64,000 bases of DNA. It comes from Variovorax sp. PBL-E5 (GTDB lineage Bacteria; Pseudomonadota; Gammaproteobacteria; Burkholderiales; Burkholderiaceae_C). Position 1 is the first letter of the stretch. Every line of letters starts with the position of its first letter. A program made the position numbers and the translations under genes. The stretch lies in the NCBI RefSeq assembly GCF_901827185.1, contig NZ_LR594671.1, positions 620,001-684,000 of the forward strand, read 5' to 3'. The notes under the pieces were generated by a model. It worked only from the letters and a program-made list of their open reading frames with translations. It did no database searches and was not told where the DNA came from. This document shows, in pieces, positions 7,335 through 21,561 of the stretch.

Positions 7335-8387
7335 TCAGGCGTACAGCGGCGCTTCCGCCATCGCCTCGCACTGGTCCTGCAGCATCTGGATCTGCCCTTT
7401 CCAGTAGTCGCTCGATCCGAACCAGGGAAAGTTGATCGGGAAGATCGGGTCTTCCCAGCGCCGCGCCAGCCAGGCGCTGTAGTGGATCAGGCGCAGCGTG
7501 CGCAGCGGCTCGATCAGCGCGAGCTCGCGGCGGTCGAAGTCGCGGAACTGCTCGTAGCCGTCGAGCAGGCCGCTCAGCTGCGCGGTGCGCTGCGCGCGAT
7601 CGCCCGACAGCAGCATCCACAGGTCCTGCACCGCGAAGCCGGTGCGCGCGTCGTCGAGGTCGACGAAGTGCGGGCCGCCGTCGGGACGATCGGTCGGCGT
7701 CCAGAGGATGTTGCCGGGATGCACGTCGCCGTGCAGCCGGATCTTGCGCGCCGGCGTCTCGCTGTCGCTCGCGTGGGTGGGCGAGAGGGCGGTCGCGGCG
7801 ATCATGTCCAACGCCGCGTTGCAGGCCGTCTCCCATTCGCGCTGCACATCGAGCGGCACCCGCTCGTGGCCCAGCAGCCAGTCGCGCGAGGCGATGCCGA
7901 AGCTCTGCAGGTCGAGCGCCGGCCGCGCCGCGAAAGGCGTCTGCGCACCGACGGCGTGGATGCGCGCGAGGAAGCGGCCGACCCATTCGAGCACCTCGAA
8001 GTCGTCCAGCTCCGGTGCGCGCCCGCCGCGGTAGGGGCTGACGCTGAAGCCGAAGCCGCCATGCCGGTGCAGCGTGTTGCCCTCGACCACGAGCGGCGCC
8101 ACCGCGGGCACCTCGGCGGCGGCGAGCTCGAGCGCGAAGCCGTGTTCCTCGAGGATCTCCGCATCGCTCCAGCGCCCGGGGCGATAGAACTTCACCACCA
8201 CGGCGCTGCGGTCCTCCAGGTAGACCTGGTAGACGCGGTTCTCGTAGGAGTTGAGCGCCATCAGCCGGCCGTCGCCGTGCAGGCCGAGTGTGGCGAGCGC
8301 GTCCAGCACCACGTCGGGCGTGAGCGATTCGTAGGGATGGCCGGCGTGCGCCGGTTCGTCGGGAGAAAAGGAAGGAGGTGACACCAC
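7335..8387 (-). CDS. srkA: Stress response kinase SrkA (YihE/RdoA)
   Basis: This is an aminoglycoside-phosphotransferase-fold Ser/Thr kinase of about 350 residues. It shows the nucleotide loop NSYENRVYQV, the lysine strand VVKFYRPGRW, the catalytic loop LHGDVHPGNILW and the metal-binding FVDLDDARTG. In enterobacteria SrkA counters stress-induced death linked to MazEF and Cpx signalling; that role is known for the family and not shown here. The start is uncertain: tandem GTG codons head the frame with no clear ribosome site, and the homologous part begins at YESLTPDVVLDAL. Confidence 0.92.
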   Translation of the reverse strand: MVSPPSFSPDEPAHAGHPYESLTPDVVLDALATLGLHGDGRLMALNSYENRVYQVYLEDRSAVVVKFYRPGRWSDAEILEEHGFALELAAAEVPAVAPLVVEGNTLHRHGGFGFSVSPYRGGRAPELDDFEVLEWVGRFLARIHAVGAQTPFAARPALDLQSFGIASRDWLLGHERVPLDVQREWETACNAALDMIAATALSPTHASDSETPARKIRLHGDVHPGNILWTPTDRPDGGPHFVDLDDARTGFAVQDLWMLLSGDRAQRTAQLSGLLDGYEQFRDFDRRELALIEPLRTLRLIHYSAWLARRWEDPIFPINFPWFGSSDYWKGQIQMLQDQCEAMAEAPLYA

Positions 8388-8474
8388 GGCGACATTGTCG
8401 CGGGTCGGCCCTGTTGCAGGAGATCGGCAAGCGGCCTAAACTAAGTTCAATTAAGAAAGTGAAAAGGAGACGGC

Positions 8475-8945
8475 GTGGCGGCTCGCGACAACCCCCTGAT
8501 GGGCACCTGGCAACTCGTTCGCTGGGAGATCGCCTATGGCGACGGGCGACCGGCCACGCTGCCCTTCGGCGAAGCGGCGACCGGCCTGATCCTCTACAGC
8601 CACGACGGCTGGATGAACGCCTGCATCGCGCGCGCCGGCCGGCCGCCGCTGTCCAGCGAGAGCATGCGCAGCGCGCCGGAATCCGAGCGGCTCGCGGCCT
8701 TCGGCAGCTTCTTCCAGTACGCCGGGCGCTACGAAGTCCGCGGCGAGCCCGGCCGCCAGCAGGTGGTGCACAGCGTCACGCAGTCGCTCAATCCGAACTT
8801 CGTCGGCACGCAGCAGGTGCGCGACATGCATTTCGACACCGAGGGCCGGCTCACGCTGTCGGCCTCGGACACCGTGCCGGGCAGCGCGGTGGCGCGCCAC
8901 CATCGCCTGATCTGGGCGCGCTGCGCGCAGGGAGCGGCGGCGTGA
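8475..8945 (+). CDS. Lipocalin-like domain protein
   Basis: This is a 156-residue protein of the lipocalin-like family. It has the opening MGTWQLVRWEIAYGDG and the central LILYSHDGWMNACIAR typical of these small beta-barrels found in catabolic clusters. It starts with GTG behind a strong AAGGAGA site at 8464. Its stop codon overlaps the GTG of the next gene, so the two are translationally coupled. It is the first gene of a nine-gene operon that runs to 18744. It may bind a hydrophobic intermediate; no catalytic residues are evident. Confidence 0.8.
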   Translation: MAARDNPLMGTWQLVRWEIAYGDGRPATLPFGEAATGLILYSHDGWMNACIARAGRPPLSSESMRSAPESERLAAFGSFFQYAGRYEVRGEPGRQQVVHSVTQSLNPNFVGTQQVRDMHFDTEGRLTLSASDTVPGSAVARHHRLIWARCAQGAAA

Positions 8946-10666
8946 GCGCGGTGCGCGAGGCATCCGCGGCAAGCACGCTGTTCGAGCGCCATCGCGCCAC
9001 CTTCGAGCGCGCCGCGCTGGCCTGCCGCGAACGGCACTGCTGGAGTCCGTACCCGGAGCTGCCCGCCAAGTACCCGAATGCGGCGCAGGCCCAGGCCGAC
9101 GGTGCCGCGGCGTTCCGCGCGCACCTCGGCCAGCGCTTCGCGCTCGACCAGCCGGGCGCCGTCGGCGAAGCCGGCGAGGAGATCTCGCCCTGTACGCAGC
9201 AGGCGCTTCGCATCCGCTATCCGCAGGCCGACATCGACACGCTGTTCGATGCCGCCGAAGCCGCGATCGACGACTGGGCCGCGGCTTGCGTCGACACCCG
9301 CATCGGCGTGCTGATGGAAGCGCTGGACACGATCTACCGCGAGCACCTGTTCGAGATCGCGCACGCGGTGATGCACACCGCCGGCCAGAGCTTCAACATG
9401 GCCTACGCGGGCTCGGGCGTCAACGCGCTCGACCGCGGCATCGAGGCCCTGGTCCATGCGAAGCAGGCGATGGACGCCATCGCGCCCACGGCCCGCTGGG
9501 AGCGCGCCTTCGGCAGCGCGCGGATCGCGCTCGACAAGACCTACCGCCTGGTGCCGCGCGGCGTCGCCGTGTGCTTCAGCTGCGCGAGCTTTCCGACCTG
9601 GAACGCCTGGCCCTCGATGCTCGCGAGCCTGGCCACCGGCAACGCGGTGATCGTCAAGCCGCATCCGGCCACGGTGCTGCCGATGGCGATCTCGGTGCGC
9701 GCGTTCCGCCGCGTGCTGGCCGCCGCGGGCTTCGATCCGAACCTCGTCACGCTGGCGCTCGACACCTCGGCAGAACCCATCGGCAAGCGGCTGGTGCAGC
9801 ATCCGAAGACGGCGATCGTCGACTTCACCGGCAGCGTCGCCTTCGGCCAGTGGGTCGAGCGCAACGCGCATCCGGCGCTGGTCTTCACCGAGACCGCGGG
9901 CTGCAACACCGTGGTCCTCGAATCGGCCGACGACCTCGATGCCGCGCTGCGCAGCCTGGCCACCACGCTGTGCATGTTCAGCGCCCAGATGTGCACCAGC
10001 CCGCAGAACATCTACGTGCCGGCGCAGGGCGTGCGCACGCCCCAGGGCGTGGTGGCCTTCGACGCGGTCGCGCGCCGGCTGGCCGATGCGGTGGCCGCGC
10101 TGACCGGCGATGCGAAGAAGGCCGCGATGATCCTCGCGACGCTGCAGTCGCCGCAGACGCTCGCGCTGCTGGCGCAGATGACCGAGGAGGGCGAACAGCG
10201 CGGCCAGGTTCTGCTGCGGCCGAAGCGCTACCTGCATCCCGAGTATCCCGACGCGCGCACCAGCACGCCGCTGATGCTCAAGGTCGGCAAGGCGGAGCGC
10301 GATCTCTACGGCGCGGAACGCTTCGGCCCGATCAGCTTCGTGATCGCCTGCGACGACGCGGCCGATGCGCTCGCGCAGGCCGTGCGCGACGTGAAGCAGT
10401 TCGGCGGCCTCACAGCCTTTCTCTACTCGACCGACGAGACCTGCATCGCGTCCGCCGAAGCGGCCTACGCGAAGGCCGGCGCGCAGCTCACCATCAACCT
10501 CACCGGGCCGATGCCGCTCAACTTCGCGGCCGCCTACAGCGACTACCACGTCACCGGCCTCAATCCCGCCGGCAACGCGAGCCTGACCGACCTCGCCTTC
10601 GTTGCCGGGCGTTTCCGCATCTCGCAATCGCGCCGGCCCGCGGCGCCCGACACCTCATCGACCTGA
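8942..10666 (+). CDS. paaN: PaaN-type aldehyde dehydrogenase
   Basis: This is a 574-residue aldehyde-dehydrogenase-fold protein of the PaaN branch associated with phenylacetate-type pathways. The substrate/NAD region CASFPTWNAWPSMLASLATG, the VIVKPHPATVLP strand, FTETAGCN, and SAQMCTSPQN with the likely nucleophile Cys351 are all present. The GTG start overlaps the previous stop (GTGA). There is no MaoC-like hydratase domain, unlike PaaZ, and no other paa gene in the window. In this operon it probably oxidises an aldehyde released by the downstream oxygenase. That is inference. Confidence 0.88.
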   Translation: MSAVREASAASTLFERHRATFERAALACRERHCWSPYPELPAKYPNAAQAQADGAAAFRAHLGQRFALDQPGAVGEAGEEISPCTQQALRIRYPQADIDTLFDAAEAAIDDWAAACVDTRIGVLMEALDTIYREHLFEIAHAVMHTAGQSFNMAYAGSGVNALDRGIEALVHAKQAMDAIAPTARWERAFGSARIALDKTYRLVPRGVAVCFSCASFPTWNAWPSMLASLATGNAVIVKPHPATVLPMAISVRAFRRVLAAAGFDPNLVTLALDTSAEPIGKRLVQHPKTAIVDFTGSVAFGQWVERNAHPALVFTETAGCNTVVLESADDLDAALRSLATTLCMFSAQMCTSPQNIYVPAQGVRTPQGVVAFDAVARRLADAVAALTGDAKKAAMILATLQSPQTLALLAQMTEEGEQRGQVLLRPKRYLHPEYPDARTSTPLMLKVGKAERDLYGAERFGPISFVIACDDAADALAQAVRDVKQFGGLTAFLYSTDETCIASAEAAYAKAGAQLTINLTGPMPLNFAAAYSDYHVTGLNPAGNASLTDLAFVAGRFRISQSRRPAAPDTSST

Positions 10667-10677
10667 AGGAGACACGC

Positions 10678-12123
10678 ATGGGACACAACGACATTCCGGT
10701 GCTGACCGGCGGCTTCGCGCCGATCGAGCGCGAAGTCACGCTGGACCTCACCGACATCGAGGGCGAGGTGCCGAAGGACCTGACCGGCATGCACGTGCGC
10801 AACGGCCCGAACCGCCGCTTCGAGGCGCCCGGCCGCTACCACTGGTTCGACGGCGACGGCATGCTGCATGCGGTGCGCTTCGAGGGCGGCCGCGTGCAGT
10901 ACCTGAACCGCTGGGTCATGACCGACAGCCTGCAGGAAGAGCTCGCGGCCGGCAGCGCGCTGTGGCAGGGCATCAAGGATCCGCCGCGCAAGGACCGGCC
11001 CGACATGCCGGTGAAGAACACCTCGAACACCGACGTCAAGTTCTACGGCGGCAACCTGGTGTCGATGTGGTACCTCGGCGGCTCGGTCTACCGCTGCAGC
11101 CCCGACGACCTCTCGACGCTCGGCAAGCTCGAGTTCGATCCGCGCATGAAGGGCCTGCCGGTGTCGGCGCATTCGAAGGTCGACGAGCGCACCGGCGAAT
11201 TCCTGTTCTTCGCCTACGGCAAGGAAGCGCCCTACATGCACTACGGCGTGATGGACCGCCACGGCGCGCTGCAGACCTTCATGCCGGTGCAGCTGCCCGG
11301 CCCGCGCCTGCCGCACGACATGGCGATCACGCCCAACTACACCGTGGTGCACGACCTGCCGCTGTTCTACGACATGGACGCGTTCGCGGCCGGCCGCCAC
11401 AAGCTCAAGTTCCATCACACGCTGCCGTCGCGCTTCGGCGTCATCCCGCGCCACGGCACGCCCGAGCAGATCCGCTGGTTCGAGGCCAGCCCGACCTACA
11501 TGTACCACGTGTCGAATGCGTGGGAAGAGGACGACGGCCGCGGCGGCACCGAGATCGTCATGACCGGCACGCCCTTCCGGCTGCCGCGCGACTGGCGCGG
11601 CAACGTCGAGGTCGACCGCTTCCCGAAGATGCTGGCCAACCTCGAGCACGACTTCATGTTCTACGAGTGGCGCTTCAACCTGCGCACCGGCCAGACGCGC
11701 GAGCGCGTGCTCGACGACATCGTCAACCAGGAGTTCCCGGTCATCAACTCGTGGATGCAGGGGCGCAAGACGCGCTACGCATGGAACGTGCTGATGGGCC
11801 GCAGCAACCGCGCCGAGGATCCGCGCTTCTGCGGCTTCGTGCGGCAGGACCTCGAGCGCGGCATCAGCACCAGCTACCACGAGGGCGTGCACAAGTGGTT
11901 CAGCGAGGCGCCCTTCGCGCCGAAGGACCGCTGGCAGGCCGAGGACGACGGCTACCTGGTCGGCTTCCTGTGGGACGACGAGAAGAAGGCCTCCTTCGTC
12001 ACGGTGTTCGATGCGAGCGACATCGCGAAAGGCCCGGTCGCGCGCATCCGCCTGCCGCACCGCGTGCCGAACGGCTTCCATGCCACCTGGGTCAGCGGCG
12101 AGCGCCTCGCACGAGGCTACTGA
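10678..12123 (+). CDS. Carotenoid cleavage oxygenase family protein
   Basis: This is a 481-residue non-haem iron dioxygenase of the carotenoid/stilbene cleavage (RPE65) family, which splits C=C bonds into two carbonyl products. The four iron-binding histidines can be placed at 165 (SAHSKVDE), 213 (LPHDMAI), 277 (YHVSNAWEED) and 468 (NGFHATW). The length and His spacing resemble bacterial stilbene oxygenases such as NOV1. The fold's N-terminal RNGPNRRFEAPGRYHWFDGDG is present. An AAGGAGA ribosome site precedes the ATG, and the stop overlaps the next start. The substrate is not determined; an apocarotenoid or a phenylpropanoid/stilbene are the main options. Confidence 0.93.
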   Translation: MGHNDIPVLTGGFAPIEREVTLDLTDIEGEVPKDLTGMHVRNGPNRRFEAPGRYHWFDGDGMLHAVRFEGGRVQYLNRWVMTDSLQEELAAGSALWQGIKDPPRKDRPDMPVKNTSNTDVKFYGGNLVSMWYLGGSVYRCSPDDLSTLGKLEFDPRMKGLPVSAHSKVDERTGEFLFFAYGKEAPYMHYGVMDRHGALQTFMPVQLPGPRLPHDMAITPNYTVVHDLPLFYDMDAFAAGRHKLKFHHTLPSRFGVIPRHGTPEQIRWFEASPTYMYHVSNAWEEDDGRGGTEIVMTGTPFRLPRDWRGNVEVDRFPKMLANLEHDFMFYEWRFNLRTGQTRERVLDDIVNQEFPVINSWMQGRKTRYAWNVLMGRSNRAEDPRFCGFVRQDLERGISTSYHEGVHKWFSEAPFAPKDRWQAEDDGYLVGFLWDDEKKASFVTVFDASDIAKGPVARIRLPHRVPNGFHATWVSGERLARGY

Positions 12124-13865
12124 TGATCCTGGTCCCGCAAGACAAGATCGACGCCTACACCGCGCGCGGCTGGTGGGGCAGCGAAACCATGGGCTCGCTG
12201 TTCGCGCGCCACCGGCGCGAGCGGCCCGATGACGAGGCCGTGGTCGACGCGCCGAACCGCGCCGACTTCGCGCACGGCGCGCCGCGCCGGCTCACCTGGG
12301 CGCAGCTCGGCGACGAGGTCGACCGCTTCGCGCTGCTGCTGTGTGCGGCCGGCATCCGGCGCGACGAGGTGGTGGTGGTGCAGATGCCCAACGGCGTCGA
12401 GCAGTTCGTCGTCTACCTCGCCTGCGCGCGCCTGGGCATCGTGGTGACGCCGGTGCCGATCCAGTACCGCGAGCACGAGCTGGCGCACATCCTCGAGATC
12501 ACGCGCGCCGTCGCGGCGGTGAGCTTCTCGCGCATCGGCAAGCCGGACAGCGGCCACGCGGCGGCGCGCATGTTCGCGGAGCTGCGCGCCGCGCATCCTT
12601 CGCTGCGCGTGGTGCTGGCCTGGGGCGACACCGTGGACGCTGGCGTGGTCGACGTCGCCGCGCAGCTGCGCGCCGCGCCCGACCTCGAGCGCCTCGCGCA
12701 GGCCGAGCGCGAGGCGGCCGTCACGGCCAACGACGTGCTCACCATCTGCTGGACCTCCGGCACCGAGGCGACGCCGAAGGGCGTGCCGCGCAGCCACAAC
12801 GAATGGCTGGTGATCGCGCCCTCGATCATCGAGGCCGGCGAGATCCGGCTGCATGCGCGCCTGCTCAATCCGTTCCCGCTGGTCAACATGGCGGGCTTCT
12901 CCACCGCCATGGCGGCCTGGCTGGTGCTGGGCGGCACCGTGGTGCAGCACCAGCCTTTCGCGCTGCCCATCTTCCTGCAGCAGTTGCGCGAGGAGCGCAT
13001 CGACTACACGGTGGCGCCGCCGGCGATTCTCAACATGCTGCTGCAGAACGACGCACTGCTCGCCGGCATCGACTTCGCGCGCCTCGCGCGCATCGGCTCG
13101 GGCTCGGCGCCGCTGTCGGACTGGATGGTGCGCGGCTTCGCCGAGAAGCATGGCGTGCAGATCGTCAACTACTTCGGCTCCAACGAGGGCGCGGCGCTGT
13201 CGGGCAACCACGTCGACATCCCCGACCCCGGGCTGCGCGCCCAGTTCTTTCCGCGCGCCGGCGTGCCGGGGCACGCGTGGAGCATCTCGACCACGCGCAA
13301 GATCCGCACGCGCCTGGTCGACACCGAGACCGGCGAGGACATCGAGGAGACCGGCCGCCCCGGCGAGATCCGCTTCGATGGCCCGACCATCTTCAGCGGC
13401 TACTACAACGCGCCGGAACTGAGCCGCCGCGCCTTCGACGCCCAGGGCTTCTACAAGACCGGCGACCTGTTCGAGATCGCCGGCGACCGCGCGCAGTACT
13501 ACCACTACGTCGGCCGCTCGAAGGACCTGGTGATCCGCGGCGGCGTGAACATCTCCTCGGAAGAAATCGAGAACCTGCTGATGGCCTGTCCCGGCGTGCG
13601 CGAGGCGGCCGTGGTCGGCGTGCCGGACGCGCTGCTGGGCGAGAAGCTCTGCGCCTGCATCGTCGCGGCCGAAGGCGCGCCGGCCGTCACGCTCGACGCG
13701 ATCACGGCCTTCCTGCGCGAGCACAAGCGCGTGGCGGTCTACAAGCTGCCCGAGTACCTGCTGCCGCTGGCCGAACTGCCGCGCAACCCGGTGGGCAAGA
13801 TCCTCAAGCGCGAGCTGCGCGACCGTGCGCGCACGCTCGCCGCGACGGCGAAGGCGGCCGCATGA
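12123..13865 (+). CDS. AMP-dependent acyl-CoA synthetase
   Basis: This is a 580-residue adenylate-forming ligase. Motifs in order are WTSGTEATPKGVPRSH (phosphate loop, around residue 215), NYFGSNEGAA, YKTGDLF and YVGRSKDLVIRGGVNISSEE. The C terminus ends with PRNPVGKILKREL, carrying the catalytic lysine. It converts a carboxylate to its CoA thioester through an acyl-AMP. The ATG shares one base with the stop of the oxygenase gene and its own stop overlaps the hydrolase start. In context it likely activates an acid made by PaaN. The fatty or aromatic preference cannot be read. Confidence 0.93.
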   Translation: MILVPQDKIDAYTARGWWGSETMGSLFARHRRERPDDEAVVDAPNRADFAHGAPRRLTWAQLGDEVDRFALLLCAAGIRRDEVVVVQMPNGVEQFVVYLACARLGIVVTPVPIQYREHELAHILEITRAVAAVSFSRIGKPDSGHAAARMFAELRAAHPSLRVVLAWGDTVDAGVVDVAAQLRAAPDLERLAQAEREAAVTANDVLTICWTSGTEATPKGVPRSHNEWLVIAPSIIEAGEIRLHARLLNPFPLVNMAGFSTAMAAWLVLGGTVVQHQPFALPIFLQQLREERIDYTVAPPAILNMLLQNDALLAGIDFARLARIGSGSAPLSDWMVRGFAEKHGVQIVNYFGSNEGAALSGNHVDIPDPGLRAQFFPRAGVPGHAWSISTTRKIRTRLVDTETGEDIEETGRPGEIRFDGPTIFSGYYNAPELSRRAFDAQGFYKTGDLFEIAGDRAQYYHYVGRSKDLVIRGGVNISSEEIENLLMACPGVREAAVVGVPDALLGEKLCACIVAAEGAPAVTLDAITAFLREHKRVAVYKLPEYLLPLAELPRNPVGKILKRELRDRARTLAATAKAAA

Positions 13866-14587
13866 AGCCGGTGCTGCTGCTGATCCCGGGCATGCTCAAC
13901 ACGGCCGCGGTCTGGCGCCGCGTGACGCCGCTGCTCGAAGGCCGCGCCGAAGTGCGCATCGCCGACGTGCAGACGCAGGACAGCATCGCCGCGATGGCGC
14001 GCGATGCCTGGGCGCGCATCGCCGACGTGCCCGACCATGTGCCGGTCGCGCTCTGCGGCTTCTCGATGGGCGGCTATGTCGCGATCGAGATGCTGGCGCG
14101 CGGCGGCCGGCCGGTGCGTGCGCTCGGCCTGCTCGACAGTTCGTGCCGGCCCGAGAGCGTGGAAGGCGCCGCCCTGCGCGAGAAGACCATCGCCGCGATC
14201 GAACGCGACTTCGACAAGGTGAGCGCCGGCGTCGCGCAGTTCGCCACCGATCCCGCGCGCCATGGCGACGAGGACTTCATGGCCGCGCTGCGCGCGCTGC
14301 TGCGCGAGATCGGCGCCGAGGCCGCGATCCGGCAGAACCGCGCCATCGTCGCGCGCGCGGACCATCGCGGCGCGCTCGCAGCGCTGCGTCTTCCGACGCT
14401 CGTCATGTGCGGGCGCAACGACCGCATCACGCCGCCCGCGCTGTCCGAGGAACTGGCCGCGCTGATGCCTGCCGCGCGCCTCGAATGGATCGATGACGCC
14501 GGCCACATGACGCCGATCGAGCAGCCCGCGCGCGTGGCCGCGCTGCTCGCATCGCTGCTCGACATGACCCAAGGAGACACACCATGA
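13862..14587 (+). CDS. Alpha/beta hydrolase
   Basis: This is a 241-residue alpha/beta-hydrolase. The oxyanion region LLLIPGMLNTAAVWRRV is followed by the nucleophile elbow CGFSMGGYVA (Ser near residue 66). The acid is likely in CGRNDRITP and the final His in DDAGHMTPIEQP. Its start ATGA overlaps the ligase stop, and it is followed closely by the Bug gene. It could hydrolyse an ester, an enol-lactone or a C-C bond in the same pathway. The sequence alone does not decide. Confidence 0.88.
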   Translation: MKPVLLLIPGMLNTAAVWRRVTPLLEGRAEVRIADVQTQDSIAAMARDAWARIADVPDHVPVALCGFSMGGYVAIEMLARGGRPVRALGLLDSSCRPESVEGAALREKTIAAIERDFDKVSAGVAQFATDPARHGDEDFMAALRALLREIGAEAAIRQNRAIVARADHRGALAALRLPTLVMCGRNDRITPPALSEELAALMPAARLEWIDDAGHMTPIEQPARVAALLASLLDMTQGDTP

Positions 14588-15573
14588 TGAACCGACGCGA
14601 CACCTTCCGGCAGCTCGGCGCGCTCGCGCTGCTGGGCAGCCTGCCCATCGCCCGCGCGCAGGCCCAGGGCAGTTTTCCCGACAAGCCGGTGCGCATCGTC
14701 GTGCCCTTCGCGGCGGGCAACACGCTCGACACGGCGCTGCGCCAGGTGGCCGAGGTGTTCGACAAGAACACCGGGCAGCCGCTCCTGATCGACAACCGGC
14801 CGGGCGGCTCCGGCATCATCGCCGCGCAGAACGTGATGGGGGCGCCGGCCGACGGCTACACGCTGCTGCTGGCCAACACCAGCATGTTCACCATCAATCC
14901 GCACACCTTCTCGAAGCTGCCCTACGACCCCGAGAAGAACTTCCGTCCGGTCACGAACTTCCTCGGCGCCTCGATGGTGATGGCGGTCAACAACAACGTG
15001 CCCGCGAACAACATCAAGGAGTTCGTCGCCTGGACCAAGTCGCGGCCGGGCAAGGTGTCCTTCGCCTCGTTCACCGCCGGCAACTCCTCGCATTTCGCGG
15101 GCGTGATCCTTAACCAGCGCGCGGGCATCGACATGCTCCACGTGCCCTTCAACGGCACGCCGCCGGCGGTGACCAACCTGGTCGGCGGCGAGGTCGATGC
15201 GGCCTTCCTGCCGCTGCAGGCCGTCAAGCCGCATGTGGATGCGGGCAAGGTCAAGGTGCTGGCCGTCACCAGTCCGCAGCGCTCGCCGCAGCTGCCGCAG
15301 GTCGCGACCTTCCGCGAGCAGGGCTATCCGGACCTCGACATCTACATCTGGGCCGCGATCGTCGCGCCCGCGGCCACGCCCGATGCGGCGATCGGCCGGC
15401 TCAACGCCGAGTTCGTGAAGATCCTGCGCACGCCCGAGATCCGGGAGAAGTGGAAGGTCTTCGACTTCGAGCCGCTGCCGTCCACGCCACAGGAGTTCAC
15501 GCAGTTCGAACGGGCCGACTCGAAGCGCTGGGCCGAGGCGGTGAAGATTTCCGGTTTCAAGGCCAGCGAGTAG
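14584..15573 (+). CDS. Bug-type periplasmic receptor (TctC family)
   Basis: This is a 329-residue tripartite tricarboxylate transporter receptor. The signal sequence carries a twin-arginine-like start (MNRRDTFRQLG) and ends near ARAQAQG. The mature part opens with the family signature FPDKPVRIVVPFAAGN. The ribosome site AAGGAGA lies within the end of the hydrolase gene, and the ATG overlaps its stop. It sits inside the catabolic operon, so its ligand is likely a substrate or product of that pathway. No TctAB genes are adjacent; a pair without a receptor lies at 26729-28739. Confidence 0.93.
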   Translation: MMNRRDTFRQLGALALLGSLPIARAQAQGSFPDKPVRIVVPFAAGNTLDTALRQVAEVFDKNTGQPLLIDNRPGGSGIIAAQNVMGAPADGYTLLLANTSMFTINPHTFSKLPYDPEKNFRPVTNFLGASMVMAVNNNVPANNIKEFVAWTKSRPGKVSFASFTAGNSSHFAGVILNQRAGIDMLHVPFNGTPPAVTNLVGGEVDAAFLPLQAVKPHVDAGKVKVLAVTSPQRSPQLPQVATFREQGYPDLDIYIWAAIVAPAATPDAAIGRLNAEFVKILRTPEIREKWKVFDFEPLPSTPQEFTQFERADSKRWAEAVKISGFKASE

Positions 15574-15576
15574 TCG

Positions 15577-16584
15577 ATGACCCTCATGAACTCACGCATT
15601 CCCTTTGCGCTGCGGCTGCCCGTCTTCGCGGCGCCCATGTTCCTGATCTCCGGCCCCGCGCTGGTGCTCGCCGCCTGCAGGGCCGGCATCGTCGGCGCCT
15701 TTCCCACGCCCAATGCGCGCCCCATCGAGACGCTCGATGCATGGATGCGCGAGATCACCGAAGGGCTGGCCCGCGCGCGCGACGAGCAACCCGCGTCGAC
15801 CCTCGGCCCGTGGTGCGCCAACCTGGTCACGCATTCGTCGAACACGCGGCTGCCGGAAGACCTCGAACTCGTTGCCAAGTACAAGCCACCGATCGTCGTG
15901 ACGGCGCTGGGCAGTCCCAAGCCGGCGATCGAGGTGGTGCACCGCTATGGCGGGCTGGTGTTCGCCGATGTCATCAACCTGCAGCTCGCGCGCAAGGCGG
16001 TCGCGGCCGGCGCCGATGGGCTGGCCTGCGTGTCGGCCGGCGCCGGTGGGCACACGGGCTTTCTCTCGCCCTTCGCTTTCGTGAGTGCGGTGCGCGAATT
16101 CTTCGACGGCCATGTGATCGCCGGCGGCGGCATCAGCGACGGCTGGGGCGTGGCCGGCGCGATCGCGGCCGGCGCGGACTTCGTCTACATGGGCACGCGC
16201 TTCATCCCGGTGGCCGAGAGCCTGGCGCCCGAGGCCTACAAGCAGATGCTGGTCGACAGCACGGTCGATGACCTGGTGGTGAGCGCCGGCATCACCGGCA
16301 CGCCGGCGAGCTGGCTCAAGCCCTCGCTGCGCGCCAACGGGCTCGACCCCGATCACATGCCCGACGCGCCCGCGCGGCAGTACGACAGCAGCCAGTCGAT
16401 CGCGGCCAAGCGCTGGAAGGACGTGTGGGCGGCCGGGCAGGGCGTGGGCGCGATCCGCGAGGTGGAGCCGGTGGCCGCCGTGGTGGACCGGCTCGAACGC
16501 GAGTACGCGCAGGCCGCCGCGCGCTTCGCCGGGCTTCGCTATCCGCCGTCGCAGGAGACGGCGGCCTGGAGGAGAGCTGCATGA
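15577..16584 (+). CDS. Nitronate monooxygenase family flavoprotein
   Basis: This is a 335-residue TIM-barrel FMN protein of the nitronate monooxygenase/2-nitropropane dioxygenase family. Visible landmarks are LPVFAAPMFLISGPALV at the N terminus, GADGLACVSAGAGGHTG, and the phosphate-binding VIAGGGISDGWGVAGA followed by FVYMGTRFI. The nitronate activity is known only for part of this family. In a CoA-pathway operon it may instead reduce or oxidise an enoyl or keto intermediate. It is 3 bases from the Bug gene and its stop overlaps the thiolase start. Confidence 0.87.
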   Translation: MTLMNSRIPFALRLPVFAAPMFLISGPALVLAACRAGIVGAFPTPNARPIETLDAWMREITEGLARARDEQPASTLGPWCANLVTHSSNTRLPEDLELVAKYKPPIVVTALGSPKPAIEVVHRYGGLVFADVINLQLARKAVAAGADGLACVSAGAGGHTGFLSPFAFVSAVREFFDGHVIAGGGISDGWGVAGAIAAGADFVYMGTRFIPVAESLAPEAYKQMLVDSTVDDLVVSAGITGTPASWLKPSLRANGLDPDHMPDAPARQYDSSQSIAAKRWKDVWAAGQGVGAIREVEPVAAVVDRLEREYAQAAARFAGLRYPPSQETAAWRRAA

Positions 16585-17798
16585 CCGAACCCGTCTACAT
16601 CCTCGGCGGCTGCCAGACCGACTTCGCCAAGGCCTGGTCGCGCACCGGCGAGGACATCTCGGACATGGTGCGCGAGGGCACGCTCGGCGCACTCGCCGCG
16701 GCGCGGGTCGATGCGGCGCAGATCCAGAGCATCCATGTCGGCAATGCCTTCGCCGAGCTGCAGCGCCAGCAGGCGCACCTGGGTGCGATGGTGTCGCAGG
16801 TGGTGCCCGAACTATGGGGCGTGCCCGCGATGCGGCACGAGGGCGCCTGCGCCTCGTCCTCGCTCGGCGTGCTCGCCGCGATGGCCGAGATCGAGGCCGG
16901 CCGCTACGACTGTGTGCTGGTGCTCGGCGTCGAGGAGTTCAAGAACCTGCCGGGCAACCTCGCCTCGCAGAACCAGAATGCCGCCGCCTGGCAGGGCCGC
17001 GAGGACATCCCCTGCACCTTCATGTGGCCGGCCGCGTTCGGCCGCGTGGCGCAGGAATACGAAGAGCGCTACGGGCTGGACCGGCGCCATCTCAACCGCA
17101 TCGCCGAACTCAACTATGCCAACGCGCGCCGCAATCCGCTGGCGCAGACCCGGCGCTGGCAGTTCGACGAACGCAGCTTCACCGACGACGACGAGGCCAA
17201 TCCGCTGATCGAGCCCGGCACGCGCCGGCAGGACTGCGGCCAGGTCACCGACGGCGCCTGCGCCGTGGTGCTGGCCTCGGGCCACTTCCTGCGCGAACAC
17301 CGGCGCGACGGCGCCGCGCCGCCGCGCATCGCGGGCTGGGGCCATCGCACCGCGGGCCTGCGCCTGCTCGACAAGCTGGAGCGCAGCCGCGGTGCGGCCT
17401 ATGTGTTCCCGCATGTGCGCGAGACCATCGAGGACGCGTGGCGGCGCGCCGGCGTCGGCGGCATCGACGCGATGGACGGCGTGGAGACGCACGACTGCTT
17501 CACCACCACCGAGTACATGGCCATCGACCACCTCGGCCTCAGCACGCCGGGGCAGAGCTGGCAGGCGGTGGAGGACGGCAGTATCGATCCCGGCGGGCGT
17601 TGCCCGGTCAACATGAGCGGCGGCCTGATCGGCTGCGGCCATCCGGTCGGCGCCACCGGCACGCGCATGCTCTTCGATGCCGCGCGGCAAGTGACGGGCG
17701 AGGCGGGCGAGTGCCAGATCGAAGGCGCGCGGCGCATCCAGACGCTGAACATCGGCGGCTCCTGCGCGACCGTCGTCAGCTTCGTGGTCGAGCGCTGA
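16581..17798 (+). CDS. Thiolase, SCP2/acetyl-CoA acetyltransferase type
   Basis: This is a 405-residue thiolase-fold protein. The acylated cysteine sits in HEGACASSSLG near residue 93, and the catalytic HDCF and GCGHPVGATG motifs are near residues 309 and 351. All catalytic positions are present, so it should be active as a thiolase. It resembles the SCP-x/lipid-transfer thiolase branch more than FadA. The ATG overlaps the stop of the flavoprotein gene. It would carry out the last C-C cleavage of a CoA-bound side chain in the operon. Confidence 0.92.
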   Translation: MTEPVYILGGCQTDFAKAWSRTGEDISDMVREGTLGALAAARVDAAQIQSIHVGNAFAELQRQQAHLGAMVSQVVPELWGVPAMRHEGACASSSLGVLAAMAEIEAGRYDCVLVLGVEEFKNLPGNLASQNQNAAAWQGREDIPCTFMWPAAFGRVAQEYEERYGLDRRHLNRIAELNYANARRNPLAQTRRWQFDERSFTDDDEANPLIEPGTRRQDCGQVTDGACAVVLASGHFLREHRRDGAAPPRIAGWGHRTAGLRLLDKLERSRGAAYVFPHVRETIEDAWRRAGVGGIDAMDGVETHDCFTTTEYMAIDHLGLSTPGQSWQAVEDGSIDPGGRCPVNMSGGLIGCGHPVGATGTRMLFDAARQVTGEAGECQIEGARRIQTLNIGGSCATVVSFVVER

Positions 17799-17808
17799 CA
17801 ATCCTGCG

Positions 17809-18744
17809 GTGGCACTCACCCCGGAAGAACTCGACCTGCGCCGCGAAGCGCTGGCCACCAGCACGCTCGACCACGGCCTGCAATTGCTCGGCGACCGCTG
17901 GACCATGGCGGTCGTGCTCGGCGCCTTCCTCGGCGTGCGCCGCTTCGACGAATGGCAGAGCCGGCTCGCCATACCGCGCCATACGCTGGCGCAGCGCCTG
18001 CGCGCGCTGACCGCGCTCGGCCTGCTGCGCCAGCGGCCGTATCAGGAACGGCCGCTGCGCCATGCCTACCATCTCACCGCCAAGGGCCTGTCGCTCTATC
18101 CGCATGTGCTGATGATGTGGTCGTGGGAGCGGCGCTGGGGCACGCGCGCGACCGACCTGCCGCAGCGGCTGGTGCACGCCGGCTGCGGCCACGCCTTCGT
18201 GCCTTGGCTCGCCTGTGGCGCCTGCCACGAGAAGGTCGGCATCGGCGACCTGGGCTTCACGCTGCAGCCGAACGCGGCGCTGCGCGCGCGCGCGCCCGCC
18301 CGCGGCCGCGCGCCCCGGCTCGCGCAGGCCGAAGGCGACGGCTCGAGCAGGGGCCTGCGCGTGGACCGCTGGGCGCTGCTGATCATCTCGGCCGTGCTGC
18401 TCGGCTGCCACCATTTCGACGAACTCAGCCACGTGCTGGGCATCGGCAGCAGCGTGCTGTCGCGCCGTCTGGGCGACATGGTCGACGCCGGGCTGCTGCT
18501 GTGCCAGGACGATCTGGTCGACGGGCGGCGCCGGGTCTATCGGCTCACGCCGGCGAGCCGCGATCTGTTCGGCTACATCCTCTGCTTCTCGAGCTGGGCG
18601 GCGCGCCATCATTTCCAGGAGCCGAGCTCGATCCGCCCCACGCACCGGGCCTGCGGACATCCGTTCGTACCCGAGGTCGTGTGCAGCCACTGCCGGCGGG
18701 TGCTGGAAGCGCGCGAGGTCCGCTTCGAGGCGAGCGCGCCGTGA
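17809..18744 (+). CDS. Two-domain HxlR-type regulator with duplicated Cys/His cluster
   Basis: This is a 311-residue protein with two HxlR-like winged helices in one chain, at about residues 18-110 (LGDRWTMAVVLGAFLGVRRF) and 184-270 (VDRWALLIISAVLLGCHHFD). Each is followed by the same motif, CGHxFVPxxxCxxC, at 126-139 and 282-295. The equal spacing of Cys, His, Cys and Cys suggests two metal or redox sites. The protein looks like an internal duplication, a covalent pseudo-dimer. It starts with GTG 10 bases after the thiolase and is the last gene of the catabolic operon, so it probably controls it. The metal-binding idea is inference. Confidence 0.85.
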   Translation: MALTPEELDLRREALATSTLDHGLQLLGDRWTMAVVLGAFLGVRRFDEWQSRLAIPRHTLAQRLRALTALGLLRQRPYQERPLRHAYHLTAKGLSLYPHVLMMWSWERRWGTRATDLPQRLVHAGCGHAFVPWLACGACHEKVGIGDLGFTLQPNAALRARAPARGRAPRLAQAEGDGSSRGLRVDRWALLIISAVLLGCHHFDELSHVLGIGSSVLSRRLGDMVDAGLLLCQDDLVDGRRRVYRLTPASRDLFGYILCFSSWAARHHFQEPSSIRPTHRACGHPFVPEVVCSHCRRVLEAREVRFEASAP

Positions 18745-18897: not shown

Positions 18898-20355
18898 ATG
18901 GATGCCTTTCGCAACATTTTCGGAATCCGCCCGTCTCCCACGACGCAGATCGCGGTCGGATCAAGGTCGTCGTCGGATTTCAAGATTGAATTTCTCTCGG
19001 CATTGAAGACCAATTCCCATTTCAGGCAGCGCGGCTTCAATGGGCTGGTTGCCCGTTATATGGAGCTGTCGCCAGACTCGCCGGAAGGTTCGAAAGAAGA
19101 TCAGGTATATCGAATAGAGCTGCTGGCGACGGTGATCTCGGAATGCATGCTTCATGGCGAGACCGAGGCGCTTCATATTCTCCTCACGAACGAGCGGATC
19201 AACACACTCGGCGTTTACGGCAGGAAAGTAGGCATGTCGCTGCAGGGCTGGGAAACATTGCGGGATGCGCTGCCAAAGGATTTCGCTGCCCCCAATTTTT
19301 TTATCGCCAATACGACCATCGACGGCTCCCAGTGCAAGGTAGTGTTCGAGGTCATGCATCGAATGCCTGCCTTGAACAACATCCGTTTATTCAAGGTGAC
19401 GCTGCAGGACAAAGACTTCGAGGGTGTGGATTGTCTGTGTCTGAGCAAGCCCCTCCTGCTCGATGTCTACGGTGGATATAAATCGGAACTCATGGTGCTC
19501 AAAATCGTGGAGAAAACCCAGCTTCGCGAGTTGAATATGCATGGCTGCGACCTAAACGATGTTCCACAGCTCCATGTGGTCCAAGCGCTGAAGGAGCACC
19601 AGCAAGGGATCGAGGCGCTCTGGTGGGCTCCTGCCAGCTGCTTCCCGGAGCCCGTCAAATTGCTGATCGACGTCTGTGAGAAGAACGCGAACTCGCTGAC
19701 CAGTTTTTCGCTGGAGGACGCCGACGTTTCCGACGCTCTCGGCGACAAAACGATCCACCTCGCCAGACTGACGCAAATCAACGGTCTTCGCGTACTTAAT
19801 CTCAAGAACAACTATTACATACATGACTCGATCCTGGCGCAGACTGTCCAGATGCTGCGAGACGGCAAGACGAAGTTGCGGGAGTTGAACCTGTATCGAA
19901 CCGCCGCAGGCCCTCTTTGTTTCCAAGAACTGGCGATCGCTCTGAAACAGAACACGACGCTGACCCGGCTCACGATCAGTTGGAATGCCGAAGGCGTCAA
20001 GCTTCTGATGGAGGCCATGGAGTTCAACGAAACCCTGCAGGAAATCAACGTGCTCGACGCGGAAAGACATCCGGAGGAGGTGCAGCAGCTCCAGGCATAT
20101 GGCCACCGCAATCGCGAGCTGATGTACCAGCGGATGAAAGTTCCTAACGTTTCTTATATACAGGGTGGCATGGGGGTGCTGCTGAACAGTGGTCAGGTTC
20201 GGATGTATGAAGATCTCGCCAACTTTGCGGCCACGGTGGCATACGAGCTAGACCGGGAGTCGGCCCTTCATTTGGCCGTCCTCAACAGGGCAGCCTGGGC
20301 GGATGCCGAAGAAGCCAAGCAGGATTGGGACAAGAAGCGGCAGCAGGACGAATAA
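18898..20355 (+). CDS. Low-GC leucine-rich-repeat protein
   Basis: This is a 485-residue protein with irregular leucine-rich repeats at about residues 205-400, such as LRELNMHGCDL, LRVLNLKNNYY, LRELNLYRTAA, LTRLTISWN and LQEINVL. They look closest to the long RNase-inhibitor type. No signal peptide or membrane helix is seen. The N terminus is Ser/Thr/Pro-rich (RPSPTTQIAVGSRSSSD) and the C terminus is charged and helical. GC content is about half by eye, clearly below the neighbours, and codon use differs, which points to transfer. AAGGA precedes the ATG. LRR proteins of this build are often secreted effectors, but no secretion gene or hrp-type box is present here. Function unknown. Confidence 0.8.
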   Translation: MDAFRNIFGIRPSPTTQIAVGSRSSSDFKIEFLSALKTNSHFRQRGFNGLVARYMELSPDSPEGSKEDQVYRIELLATVISECMLHGETEALHILLTNERINTLGVYGRKVGMSLQGWETLRDALPKDFAAPNFFIANTTIDGSQCKVVFEVMHRMPALNNIRLFKVTLQDKDFEGVDCLCLSKPLLLDVYGGYKSELMVLKIVEKTQLRELNMHGCDLNDVPQLHVVQALKEHQQGIEALWWAPASCFPEPVKLLIDVCEKNANSLTSFSLEDADVSDALGDKTIHLARLTQINGLRVLNLKNNYYIHDSILAQTVQMLRDGKTKLRELNLYRTAAGPLCFQELAIALKQNTTLTRLTISWNAEGVKLLMEAMEFNETLQEINVLDAERHPEEVQQLQAYGHRNRELMYQRMKVPNVSYIQGGMGVLLNSGQVRMYEDLANFAATVAYELDRESALHLAVLNRAAWADAEEAKQDWDKKRQQDE

Positions 20356-20451: not shown

Positions 20452-21561
20452 TCAGCCGCGCGAGAGCGAAAGGATGTGGCCGCTGCGCGGATCGCCGCGG
20501 CCCGAGCGCACCGCCGCGTAGGCCGCCTGCACCGCCGCAGCGCCGTGATGGTGCTCGACGCGCAGCCAGGGCGCGCGTGGATCCGTCACCTGCGTGGTGA
20601 AGGCGTTCCACGCCAGCGCCATGCGTTCGCCGAAGCGCTCTGCGCCCCATTCGGCGCTGCGCTTCTTGATCTGCGCCGGCGCAAAGAAGAGCGTGGCGCG
20701 CGGGCCGGGCAGGTCGCGGCCCGCGCCGCTGGGCGCGAGCTGGTCCACGTGCGCGCCGCCGATCGAGGCGCTGTATTTCAACCGGGTGAAGCGCGTGTGC
20801 ACGGCGTGCCGCAGCGCGCCATTGCCGGCGAAGTCGATGTAGACGCACGGCATGTCGGCCGCCAGCTGGTCGAGTTCCTCGTAGGCCAGCACGCGCTCGT
20901 AGCAGCCCAGCGATTCGCAGAAGGCCTTGTTGGCGGCCGAGGTCAGGCCGACCACTTCGATGCCGTCGCGCTGCGCGAGCTGGAAGGCGGTGCCGTAGGC
21001 GGTCTTGCTCGATGCGCTCGAGAGCAACGCGACGCCGGGATCGGCGCCGAAGAAATCGTTGTCGGCGAAGAAGTCGTCGATCAGCCACGAGGTGATGAAG
21101 AGCGGGCGCAGCAGCGCCTGGATGTCTTCGGTGCCGGCGGTGTAGAGCGGGTCGGCCTGGCTGCGGAAATACTGGTTGTAGACCGCGGGCAGCGCGGCGC
21201 GGTGGGCGGTGCCGTCGGCGAAGCGCTCCGGCGACAGGCGCTCGGGCGTGAGCACGACCGCCGAGGCCATCGGGAAGTAGCCGTACAGGAGCTCGCCGAC
21301 CGCGACGCCCGGATGCAGCGAGTGCGTGACGGTCGCGAAACCCCACACGGGGATGGTGCCCCAGCCGTCTTCGCCGGTCGGGTAGAACTGCCAGTAGTTC
21401 ATGGCCTCGCCGAAGGCGGCGTAGGTGATGTTGTTGGCCGTGAGGGCGAAGCTGTCGATCCGCACGCGGACCTGGCCGTCGGCCAGGCGCGTGTCATCGG
21501 CCTCGTGAAGGCGAGTGATCGAGAGATCGTCCTTGCGGATCTGCAGTTCGATGGTGCTCAT
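20452..21561 (-). CDS. DUF2855 family protein
   Basis: This is a 369-residue protein with an MDR-like N-terminal part (VRVRIDSFALTANNITYAAFGEAM) and a likely Rossmann-type core around ALLSSASSKTAYGTAFQLAQ and VVGLTSAANKAFCESLGCYE. This matches the DUF2855 group, distant relatives of quinone reductases. No zinc ligands or standard GxGxxG are obvious, so activity is unproven. It stands alone, converging with the LRR gene and lying after the ohr terminator. Confidence 0.85.
   Translation of the reverse strand: MSTIELQIRKDDLSITRLHEADDTRLADGQVRVRIDSFALTANNITYAAFGEAMNYWQFYPTGEDGWGTIPVWGFATVTHSLHPGVAVGELLYGYFPMASAVVLTPERLSPERFADGTAHRAALPAVYNQYFRSQADPLYTAGTEDIQALLRPLFITSWLIDDFFADNDFFGADPGVALLSSASSKTAYGTAFQLAQRDGIEVVGLTSAANKAFCESLGCYERVLAYEELDQLAADMPCVYIDFAGNGALRHAVHTRFTRLKYSASIGGAHVDQLAPSGAGRDLPGPRATLFFAPAQIKKRSAEWGAERFGERMALAWNAFTTQVTDPRAPWLRVEHHHGAAAVQAAYAAVRSGRGDPRSGHILSLSRG

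Follow-up and report, generated by a model that had tools for sequence, protein, structure and literature searches.

The window analysed here is a stretch of 64,000 nucleotides from Variovorax sp. PBL-E5 (C1:620001-684000 of a 7.09-Mb genome), and its subject is a nine-gene operon at 8475-18744, all on the + strand, built around an oxygenase of the carotenoid-cleavage-oxygenase (CCO) family. Judged from sequence, this operon is real, recurrent in other genomes, probably regulated and catabolic in type; its known kind is CCO-based alkene catabolism, of which it would be a variant. We think it probable, at roughly two chances in three (0.68), that the nine genes make up one transcription unit whose products break down, by a coenzyme A (CoA)-dependent route, a conjugated and probably non-phenolic alkene, with an acid of isoprenoid/apocarotenoid or polyketide type as the likeliest candidate. 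On our best reading, the operon would be controlled by its HxlR regulator and would end in thiolysis, with no classical beta-oxidation genes alongside. Its products would probably take up a natural compound, cleave it at a carbon-carbon double bond and pass the fragments on to central metabolism.

With gene ends taken from start candidates and stops, and protein families from Pfam and NCBIfam, neighbouring genes overlap by 1-4 bases or sit 3-11 bases apart (junctions in order: overlap 4, gap 11, overlap 1, overlap 4, overlap 4, gap 3, overlap 4, gap 10). These are exactly the nine same-strand genes, with overlaps or gaps of at most 11 bases, that an earlier reading of this DNA (hereafter the original prediction) had described. 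The gene order is lipocalin-like protein, PaaN-branch aldehyde dehydrogenase, oxygenase, adenosine monophosphate (AMP)-forming ligase, alpha/beta hydrolase, Bug-type binding protein, nitronate-monooxygenase (NMO)-like flavin oxidoreductase, SCP2-type thiolase and HxlR regulator (Table 1). Pfam and NCBIfam bear out the family names given before, with one amendment: the 'HxlR pair' is indeed of the HxlR family, but is a single gene with two HxlR stretches rather than two genes. The operon is taken to begin at 8475 because the gene upstream (7335-8387) lies on the other strand; beyond the operon, the next open frame follows after 153 bases.

The oxygenase clade

The oxygenase matches the RPE65 profile (PF03055) with 396 bits against a cut-off of 27, and its predicted model (predicted local distance difference test score, pLDDT, 82.9) aligns with CCO structures over 404-460 residues among the matches listed. 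The iron-binding histidines H165, H213, H277 and H468 are invariant across 21 aligned rows, and they line up with the histidines of LsdA and the outgroups. A tree of 124 sequences with LsdA as its root gathers 101 of them, that of the window included (98 distinct, 3 duplicates), into one group against 23 outgroups (support 0.887), which places the oxygenase in a clade separate from the lignostilbene enzymes. Relatives are plentiful (6536 proteins at E <=1e-60 among 7998 scored candidates, not all necessarily of this clade), and our search of open-licence papers found no described function for the clade. A second RPE65-family gene lies in the same genome at C1:163679-164700, with two parts that match in different frames; it was rejected as an operon partner, as among the tested families only a weak oxygenase match was found within the surrounding 14 kb.

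One feature of the clade concerns the second shell of the iron site. Excerpts of PMC6060882 describe three of the four iron histidines as bonding to a highly conserved outer-sphere glutamate. Two of these glutamates are kept (E352 and E410, by alignment). The third corresponds to ACO Glu150, a residue with mutants named among the structure matches, and falls in alignment on residue 133. Of the 97 distinct clade sequences that have a residue at this position, only 2 show Glu, the others having Leu, Arg, Gln or Met; all 23 outgroups carry Glu at 132 or 133. By alignment, therefore, one of three conserved second-shell glutamates appears to be lost, the feature being highly conserved but not absolute; the loss is a matter of alignment because a one-residue insertion adjoins the position.

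The substrate pocket bears on what the enzyme might cleave. In the sections of PMC8191317 at hand, Tyr-101 and Lys-134 of LSD4 hold the 4-hydroxyl of the substrate. This pair is absent from the oxygenase, where the LsdA equivalents align with Ile99 and with Tyr132, the latter next to Trp131, an inserted residue. All clade sequences that cover position 99 have Ile, Val or Leu at it. The counterpart of LSD Phe-59, by contrast with the pair, is retained (F57). Three equivalog models fall below their cut-offs, namely the lignostilbene models NF053778 (222 of 800 bits) and NF053780 (184 of 650) and the 8'-apo-carotenoid 13,14-cleaving dioxygenase model NF052295 (250 of 675). Of the stilbenoid, phenylpropanoid or apocarotenoid substrates first proposed, the phenolic stilbenoid or isoeugenol-type part thus becomes less likely, since the Tyr/Lys pair for the 4-hydroxyl is missing. 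The predicted fold is a clear match, yet comparison of structures did not separate carotenoid from stilbene enzymes, and a passage of PMC6097328 indicates that a stilbene enzyme may open its tunnel for carotenoids.

Set beside known enzymes, the oxygenase shares with LsdA, SYK-6 LSD4 and NOV1 the RPE65/CCO fold, the four-histidine iron site and the Phe-59 equivalent; unlike them, it has no phenol-binding Tyr/Lys, carries the one-residue insertion, lacks the second-shell Glu by alignment and belongs to an operon with a thiolase, PaaN and a tandem HxlR regulator. By profile and fold it is closest to CCD1 and VP14. Identity with CCD1, VP14 and ACO is 24-34% in structure alignments; the position of ACO Glu150 is taken by a residue other than Glu, and a bacterial CoA-ligase/thiolase operon sets the present system apart from all three.

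Neighbourhood and candidate regulatory motif across related loci

For relatives of the oxygenase we took one genome per species and kept the best 80 loci (L034-L113; more exist), on which the nine proteins were mapped, leaving out tblastn matches covering less than 40% of the query. Partner counts use identity limits hand-set per gene and fetched flanks of up to 10 kb; more than 5 kb was present on both sides in only 48 of the 80 loci, and the counts have no matched random-locus control. The closest relatives preserve the gene order. Two loci (L034 and L035) keep lipocalin, PaaN, oxygenase, ligase, hydrolase, NMO, thiolase and HxlR in order. A third (L036) also keeps the order, with the Bug gene present too and the SCP2-type thiolase match absent, and a fourth (L037) runs from lipocalin through NMO to a contig end. 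Across the 80 loci the partners number 38 for thiolase, 35 for HxlR, 33 for ligase, 24 for NMO, 21 for lipocalin, 18 for PaaN, 13 for hydrolase and 10 for Bug. At a lax limit of 28% identity, 63 of 80 loci have one or more of six partners (lipocalin, PaaN, ligase, NMO, thiolase and HxlR), a figure that includes some generic ligases and thiolases. We read this recurrence as exceeding chance.

The grouping is not local: a comparison with other genomes, as the original prediction had proposed, found that oxygenase relatives in several phyla adjoin subsets of the same partners. Record titles place related loci in, among others, Comamonadaceae, Pararhodobacter, Chloroflexi, Nocardia, Amycolatopsis, Herbidospora, Saprospiraceae and Myxococcales. 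Clustering of neighbours, with Pfam annotation of selected representatives, adds a second, classical thiolase, parts of a branched-chain-type ATP-binding cassette (ABC) transporter, a short-chain dehydrogenase/reductase (SDR) and a DUF1295 protein, as well as a luciferase-like protein in actinobacterial loci. Within the order of the window the system is patchy, since an oxygenase match at E 1e-40 was found in 28 of 399 genomes and one below 1e-100 in six, this one included. Two to three oxygenase paralogues, often of different subclades, share a neighbourhood in L034, L051, L053, L058, L091 and two further genomes (G137 C79, G175 C37), which suggests stepwise cleavage or hetero-oligomers.

Plasmids also carry relatives (seven among 72,556 records). 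In both Cupriavidus necator pENH92 and C. basilensis pRK1-2, genes for NMO, ligase, hydrolase, oxygenase and a porin stand opposite those for HxlR, thiolase, Bug, a major facilitator superfamily (MFS) transporter, an SDR and an aldehyde dehydrogenase. Sphingopyxis granuli pRW412b has ligase, NMO, SDR, aldehyde dehydrogenase, hydrolase, TonB receptor, a Rieske protein whose nearest PDB match is dicamba O-demethylase, oxygenase and thiolase. The plasmid-borne oxygenase clusters L142, L143 and L145 (given sources 2,6-dichlorophenol enrichment, river sediment and soil) are accompanied by transposase, insertion sequence (IS) or integrase genes and by MFS transporters; porins occur in L142 and L145, and a TonB receptor and the Rieske O-demethylase-like gene in L143. 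Records with the gene set come from freshwater and soil and from plasmids.

Upstream of the lipocalin gene, a motif first spotted by eye is present in the window and in five of six relatives shown, L039 being the one without it. It abuts a sigma-70-like promoter at 8414-8442, found by comparison of loci and not listed by a generic promoter scan. Of 12 loci picked for inspection because they have the motif, 8 show a TTG-N17-TA promoter directly before it at the same spacing. The pattern AGTTCANTTAAGAAAGTRA, allowing up to three mismatches, has a single match in the 7.09-Mb genome (0 mismatches) and 0 in 100 shuffles of the window. Leaving out five training loci and one locus near its end, 74 held-out loci were scored upstream of the oxygenase with a six-site matrix; 10 of them reach at least 10 bits, compared with 0.54% of shuffled regions, the shuffles keeping base but not dinucleotide content. 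Held-out carriers include Pararhodobacter (L055), Parendozoicomonas (L103) and Nocardia (L102, L104), and an inverted second copy lies 29 bases off, before the first oxygenase, in the Comamonadaceae-type loci L045 (8352-8402) and L059 (205-255). The regulator has an HxlR domain (97.6 bits, cut-off 20.8) in two stretches of one protein, and three families of HxlR neighbours from related loci contribute 28 further members of 289-476 amino acids. The motif at 8444-8462 is a candidate operator, probably of the tandem-HxlR regulator, in an arrangement as expected of a start-site repressor operator.

Proposed route and competing readings

The thiolase bears on how the route might end. It matches NF004936 (SCP2-type, PRK06289) with 597 bits (cut-off 375) and carries the motifs CASS, HDCF and GHP at residues 90, 304 and 353, which we take to be marks of a degradative SCP2-type thiolase. 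In the flanks of the 80 loci an SCP2-type thiolase occurs in 39, a classical thiolase in 32, either in 49 and both in 22. For beta-oxidation genes, the queries were proteins of this genome selected by similarity, 25 for enoyl-CoA hydratase and 25 for acyl-CoA dehydrogenase; an enoyl-CoA hydratase was found in only three of the 80 loci (L053, L074 and L086; within 5 kb only L053) and an acyl-CoA dehydrogenase in five (L041, L043, L069, L074 and L098; within 5 kb only L069), while a single 3-hydroxyacyl-CoA dehydrogenase query matched in two. As the thiolases have few beta-oxidation neighbours, we infer a beta-ketoacyl-CoA, arising from alkene cleavage or already present in the substrate. Compared with the SCP2/SCP-x type thiolases, whose model cut-off it passes and whose motifs it carries, this thiolase differs in its genomic partner, an oxygenase of alkene-cleaving type, and in the rarity of beta-oxidation genes alongside.

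A possible working, with a tentative order of steps, is as follows. The tandem-HxlR protein would repress at 8444-8462, over the transcription start, until released by the substrate or a reactive product. The Bug protein would bind the compound in the periplasm, the hydrolase would open or free a lactone or ester, and the ligase would form the CoA thioester. The iron oxygenase would then cleave a C=C bond to give two carbonyls, the PaaN-branch dehydrogenase would oxidize aldehyde to acid, and the flavin mononucleotide (FMN)-type enzyme, going by its family (PF03060, 86 bits, cut-off 28; FabK equivalog 93 of 453 bits), may adjust an enone or the alpha-carbon. Finally, the SCP2-type thiolase, again going by family, would cleave a bulky beta-ketoacyl-CoA, and the lipocalin may, at a guess, carry or isomerize a hydrophobic intermediate. 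The original prediction spoke of a complete route for import and breakdown. Its catabolic part holds up (uptake protein, ligase, oxygenase, dehydrogenase, thiolase and own regulator, with plasmid-borne relatives), but completeness is weakened, because a membrane subunit to go with the Bug protein is missing from the nine genes and because many relatives have a second, classical thiolase outside the nine.

Several observations weigh against CoA-dependent cleavage and thiolysis of a non-phenolic alkene in one regulated unit. First, partner sets vary between loci, and the lax 28% limit still leaves 17 of the 80 without any of the six partners, in some cases because contigs are short. Second, a reversed control pattern has four genome matches with up to three mismatches, against one for the motif, and only the 10 of 74 held-out upstream regions reach 10 bits. 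Third, the Rieske O-demethylase-like gene gives a hint that the compound used by the Sphingopyxis strain is methoxylated and possibly aromatic. Finally, the operon PaaN could serve phenylacetate breakdown in trans, in a genome with no PaaZ above cut-off.

Among competing accounts, we regard degradation of a carotenoid, apocarotenoid or retinoid proper, by stepwise cutting of the polyene, as a serious if tentative one. It would suit relatives with several oxygenase paralogues per cluster; however, structural ranks are nearly tied with those of stilbene enzymes, and the 8'-apo-carotenoid model stays far below its cut-off. Abscisic-acid breakdown was also considered, and the portion of PMC7996341 at hand names no genes for it.

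A retro-polyketide scheme seems to us rather unlikely. Here the compound would be of styrylpyrone or curcuminoid type, with the hydrolase, ligase and thiolases taking off the beta-keto chain and the oxygenase cutting the styryl bond. The scheme would explain both the hydrolase and the presence of thiolases without adjoining beta-oxidation genes, and fits the O-demethylase-like gene of one cluster. It is, however, a chemical argument alone, with no enzyme here assigned to such a substrate, and the phenol-binding pair is missing, though methylated phenols could do without it.

More improbable still is a lignostilbene or phenylpropanoid route, in which the oxygenase would cleave a phenolic stilbene or an isoeugenol-like propenylbenzene to aromatic aldehydes for PaaN and the ligase. 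Family and fold are those of LsdA and NOV1, F57 is kept, one related cluster has the O-demethylase-like Rieske gene, and the ligase has salicylate-AMP ligases as its top two matches in the PDB. Set against this are the Ile99/Tyr132 alignment next to Trp131 in place of the LSD4 pair and the low scores of both LSD models. Moreover, the conversion of an aromatic aldehyde to its acid requires no thiolase.

The remaining candidate concerns PaaN. The operon enzyme passes the TIGR02288 cut-off (611 vs 579 bits). Among 200 sampled genomes, 18 of which had a match at E 1e-120, there were 13 high-scoring PaaN_2 genes (728-963 bits), eight of them at most 10 kb from a paaA/paaC-family gene (in one case a weak match that contains a stop), and three operon-branch genes (604-621 bits; this genome, G175 and G137), none of them with such a neighbour; in G137 the PaaN and the oxygenase lie on separate contigs. 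A third group consists of L160 (658 bits) and of L163 and L164, both below the cut-off. The oxygenase-locus PaaN and the three operon-branch genes form one group of 22 tips, including 2 duplicates (support 0.835; root, a third-group member), whereas under midpoint rooting the paa-linked L159 drops to the base of this group. The operon PaaN appears, then, to be a branch of its own despite scoring above the equivalog cut-off, apart from the PaaN of phenylacetate clusters, and its label here should not be taken as phenylacetate metabolism. That it acts in trans as the ring-opening semialdehyde dehydrogenase of that pathway is very improbable and was set aside: the score just above cut-off, the paaA/paaC-family genes elsewhere in the genome and the want of a PaaZ-type protein above cut-off (best 537.6 of 562.8 bits) could be read in its favour, but those paa genes lie at 3.905 Mb, 3.27 Mb from the operon, and the PaaN tree and neighbourhood counts point away from it.

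Returning to the CoA-dependent alkene route, a broader version can be put forward with some doubt: a cross-phylum 'cleave-then-thiolyse' route, in which a distinct CCO subfamily with two second-shell glutamates would yield a beta-ketoacyl-CoA, as cleavage product or CoA ester, to be split at once by an SCP2-type and/or classical thiolase, bypassing beta-oxidation, under its own tandem-HxlR operator. In Mycobacterium tuberculosis, passages of PMC5133782 and PMC8669151 describe Rv0913c and Rv0914c, which have consecutive locus numbers, as a putative CCO and a 'lipid carrier protein or keto acyl-CoA thiolase'. By analogy with that published description, rather than by sequence, this pair may be the same CCO-thiolase core. 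Our search of open-licence papers found no description of the gene set or of a linked thiolase operon, in line with the earlier statement that no named pathway was known. A defined substrate would assign a function to the gene set and reveal whether enzymes of the carotenoid-cleavage family can work when the second shell of their iron site is altered. For the search for that substrate, the tandem HxlR and its promoter would provide a convenient biosensor.

Feature coordinates and adjoining sequence

Table 1. Genes and putative regulatory elements of the operon (window positions).
Feature	Position	Strand	Basis
Sigma-70-like promoter TTGCAG-N17-TAAACT	8414..8442	+	comparison of loci
Candidate operator AGTTCAATTAAGAAAGTGA, 19 bases, at expected transcription start	8444..8462	+	recurrent motif
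Lipocalin-like protein (PF13924, Lipocalin_5)	8475..8945	+	Pfam 113.5 bits
PaaN-branch aldehyde dehydrogenase (PaaN_2)	8942..10666	+	Pfam, NCBIfam 611 bits, cut-off 579; tree branch distinct from PaaN of paa clusters
Carotenoid-cleavage-oxygenase family enzyme (RPE65 fold), altered second-shell clade	10678..12123	+	Pfam 396 bits, alignment, tree
AMP-forming acyl/aryl-acid ligase-type enzyme (AMP-binding)	12123..13865	+	Pfam, NCBIfam
Alpha/beta hydrolase	13862..14587	+	Pfam, NCBIfam
Bug/TctC-type periplasmic binding protein	14584..15573	+	Pfam 234 bits
NMO/FabK-like flavin oxidoreductase	15577..16584	+	Pfam, NCBIfam
SCP2-type thiolase (PRK06289)	16581..17798	+	NCBIfam 597 bits, cut-off 375; motifs
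Tandem-HxlR transcriptional regulator, 311 aa	17809..18744	+	Pfam, two HxlR stretches

Base composition led us to reject a recent foreign origin, the operon having 70.5% G+C against 68.6 and 68.8% on its flanks. The upstream gene at 7335-8387 was dropped as a pathway kinase on its match to the PRK11768 kinase model (NCBIfam 486 bits, cut-off 194). Past the operon, a DUF2855 protein (369 bits; no NCBIfam match) is encoded at 20455-21561 on the - strand. Between the two lies a 485-residue open frame at 18898-20355 (+), which matched neither Pfam nor NCBIfam models at the limits used; a search with 7997 scored candidates gave no homologue at E 0.001. Leucine-rich repeats are visible in it by eye, and its G+C content is 54-59% in 1-kb steps, against about 70% in the operon.

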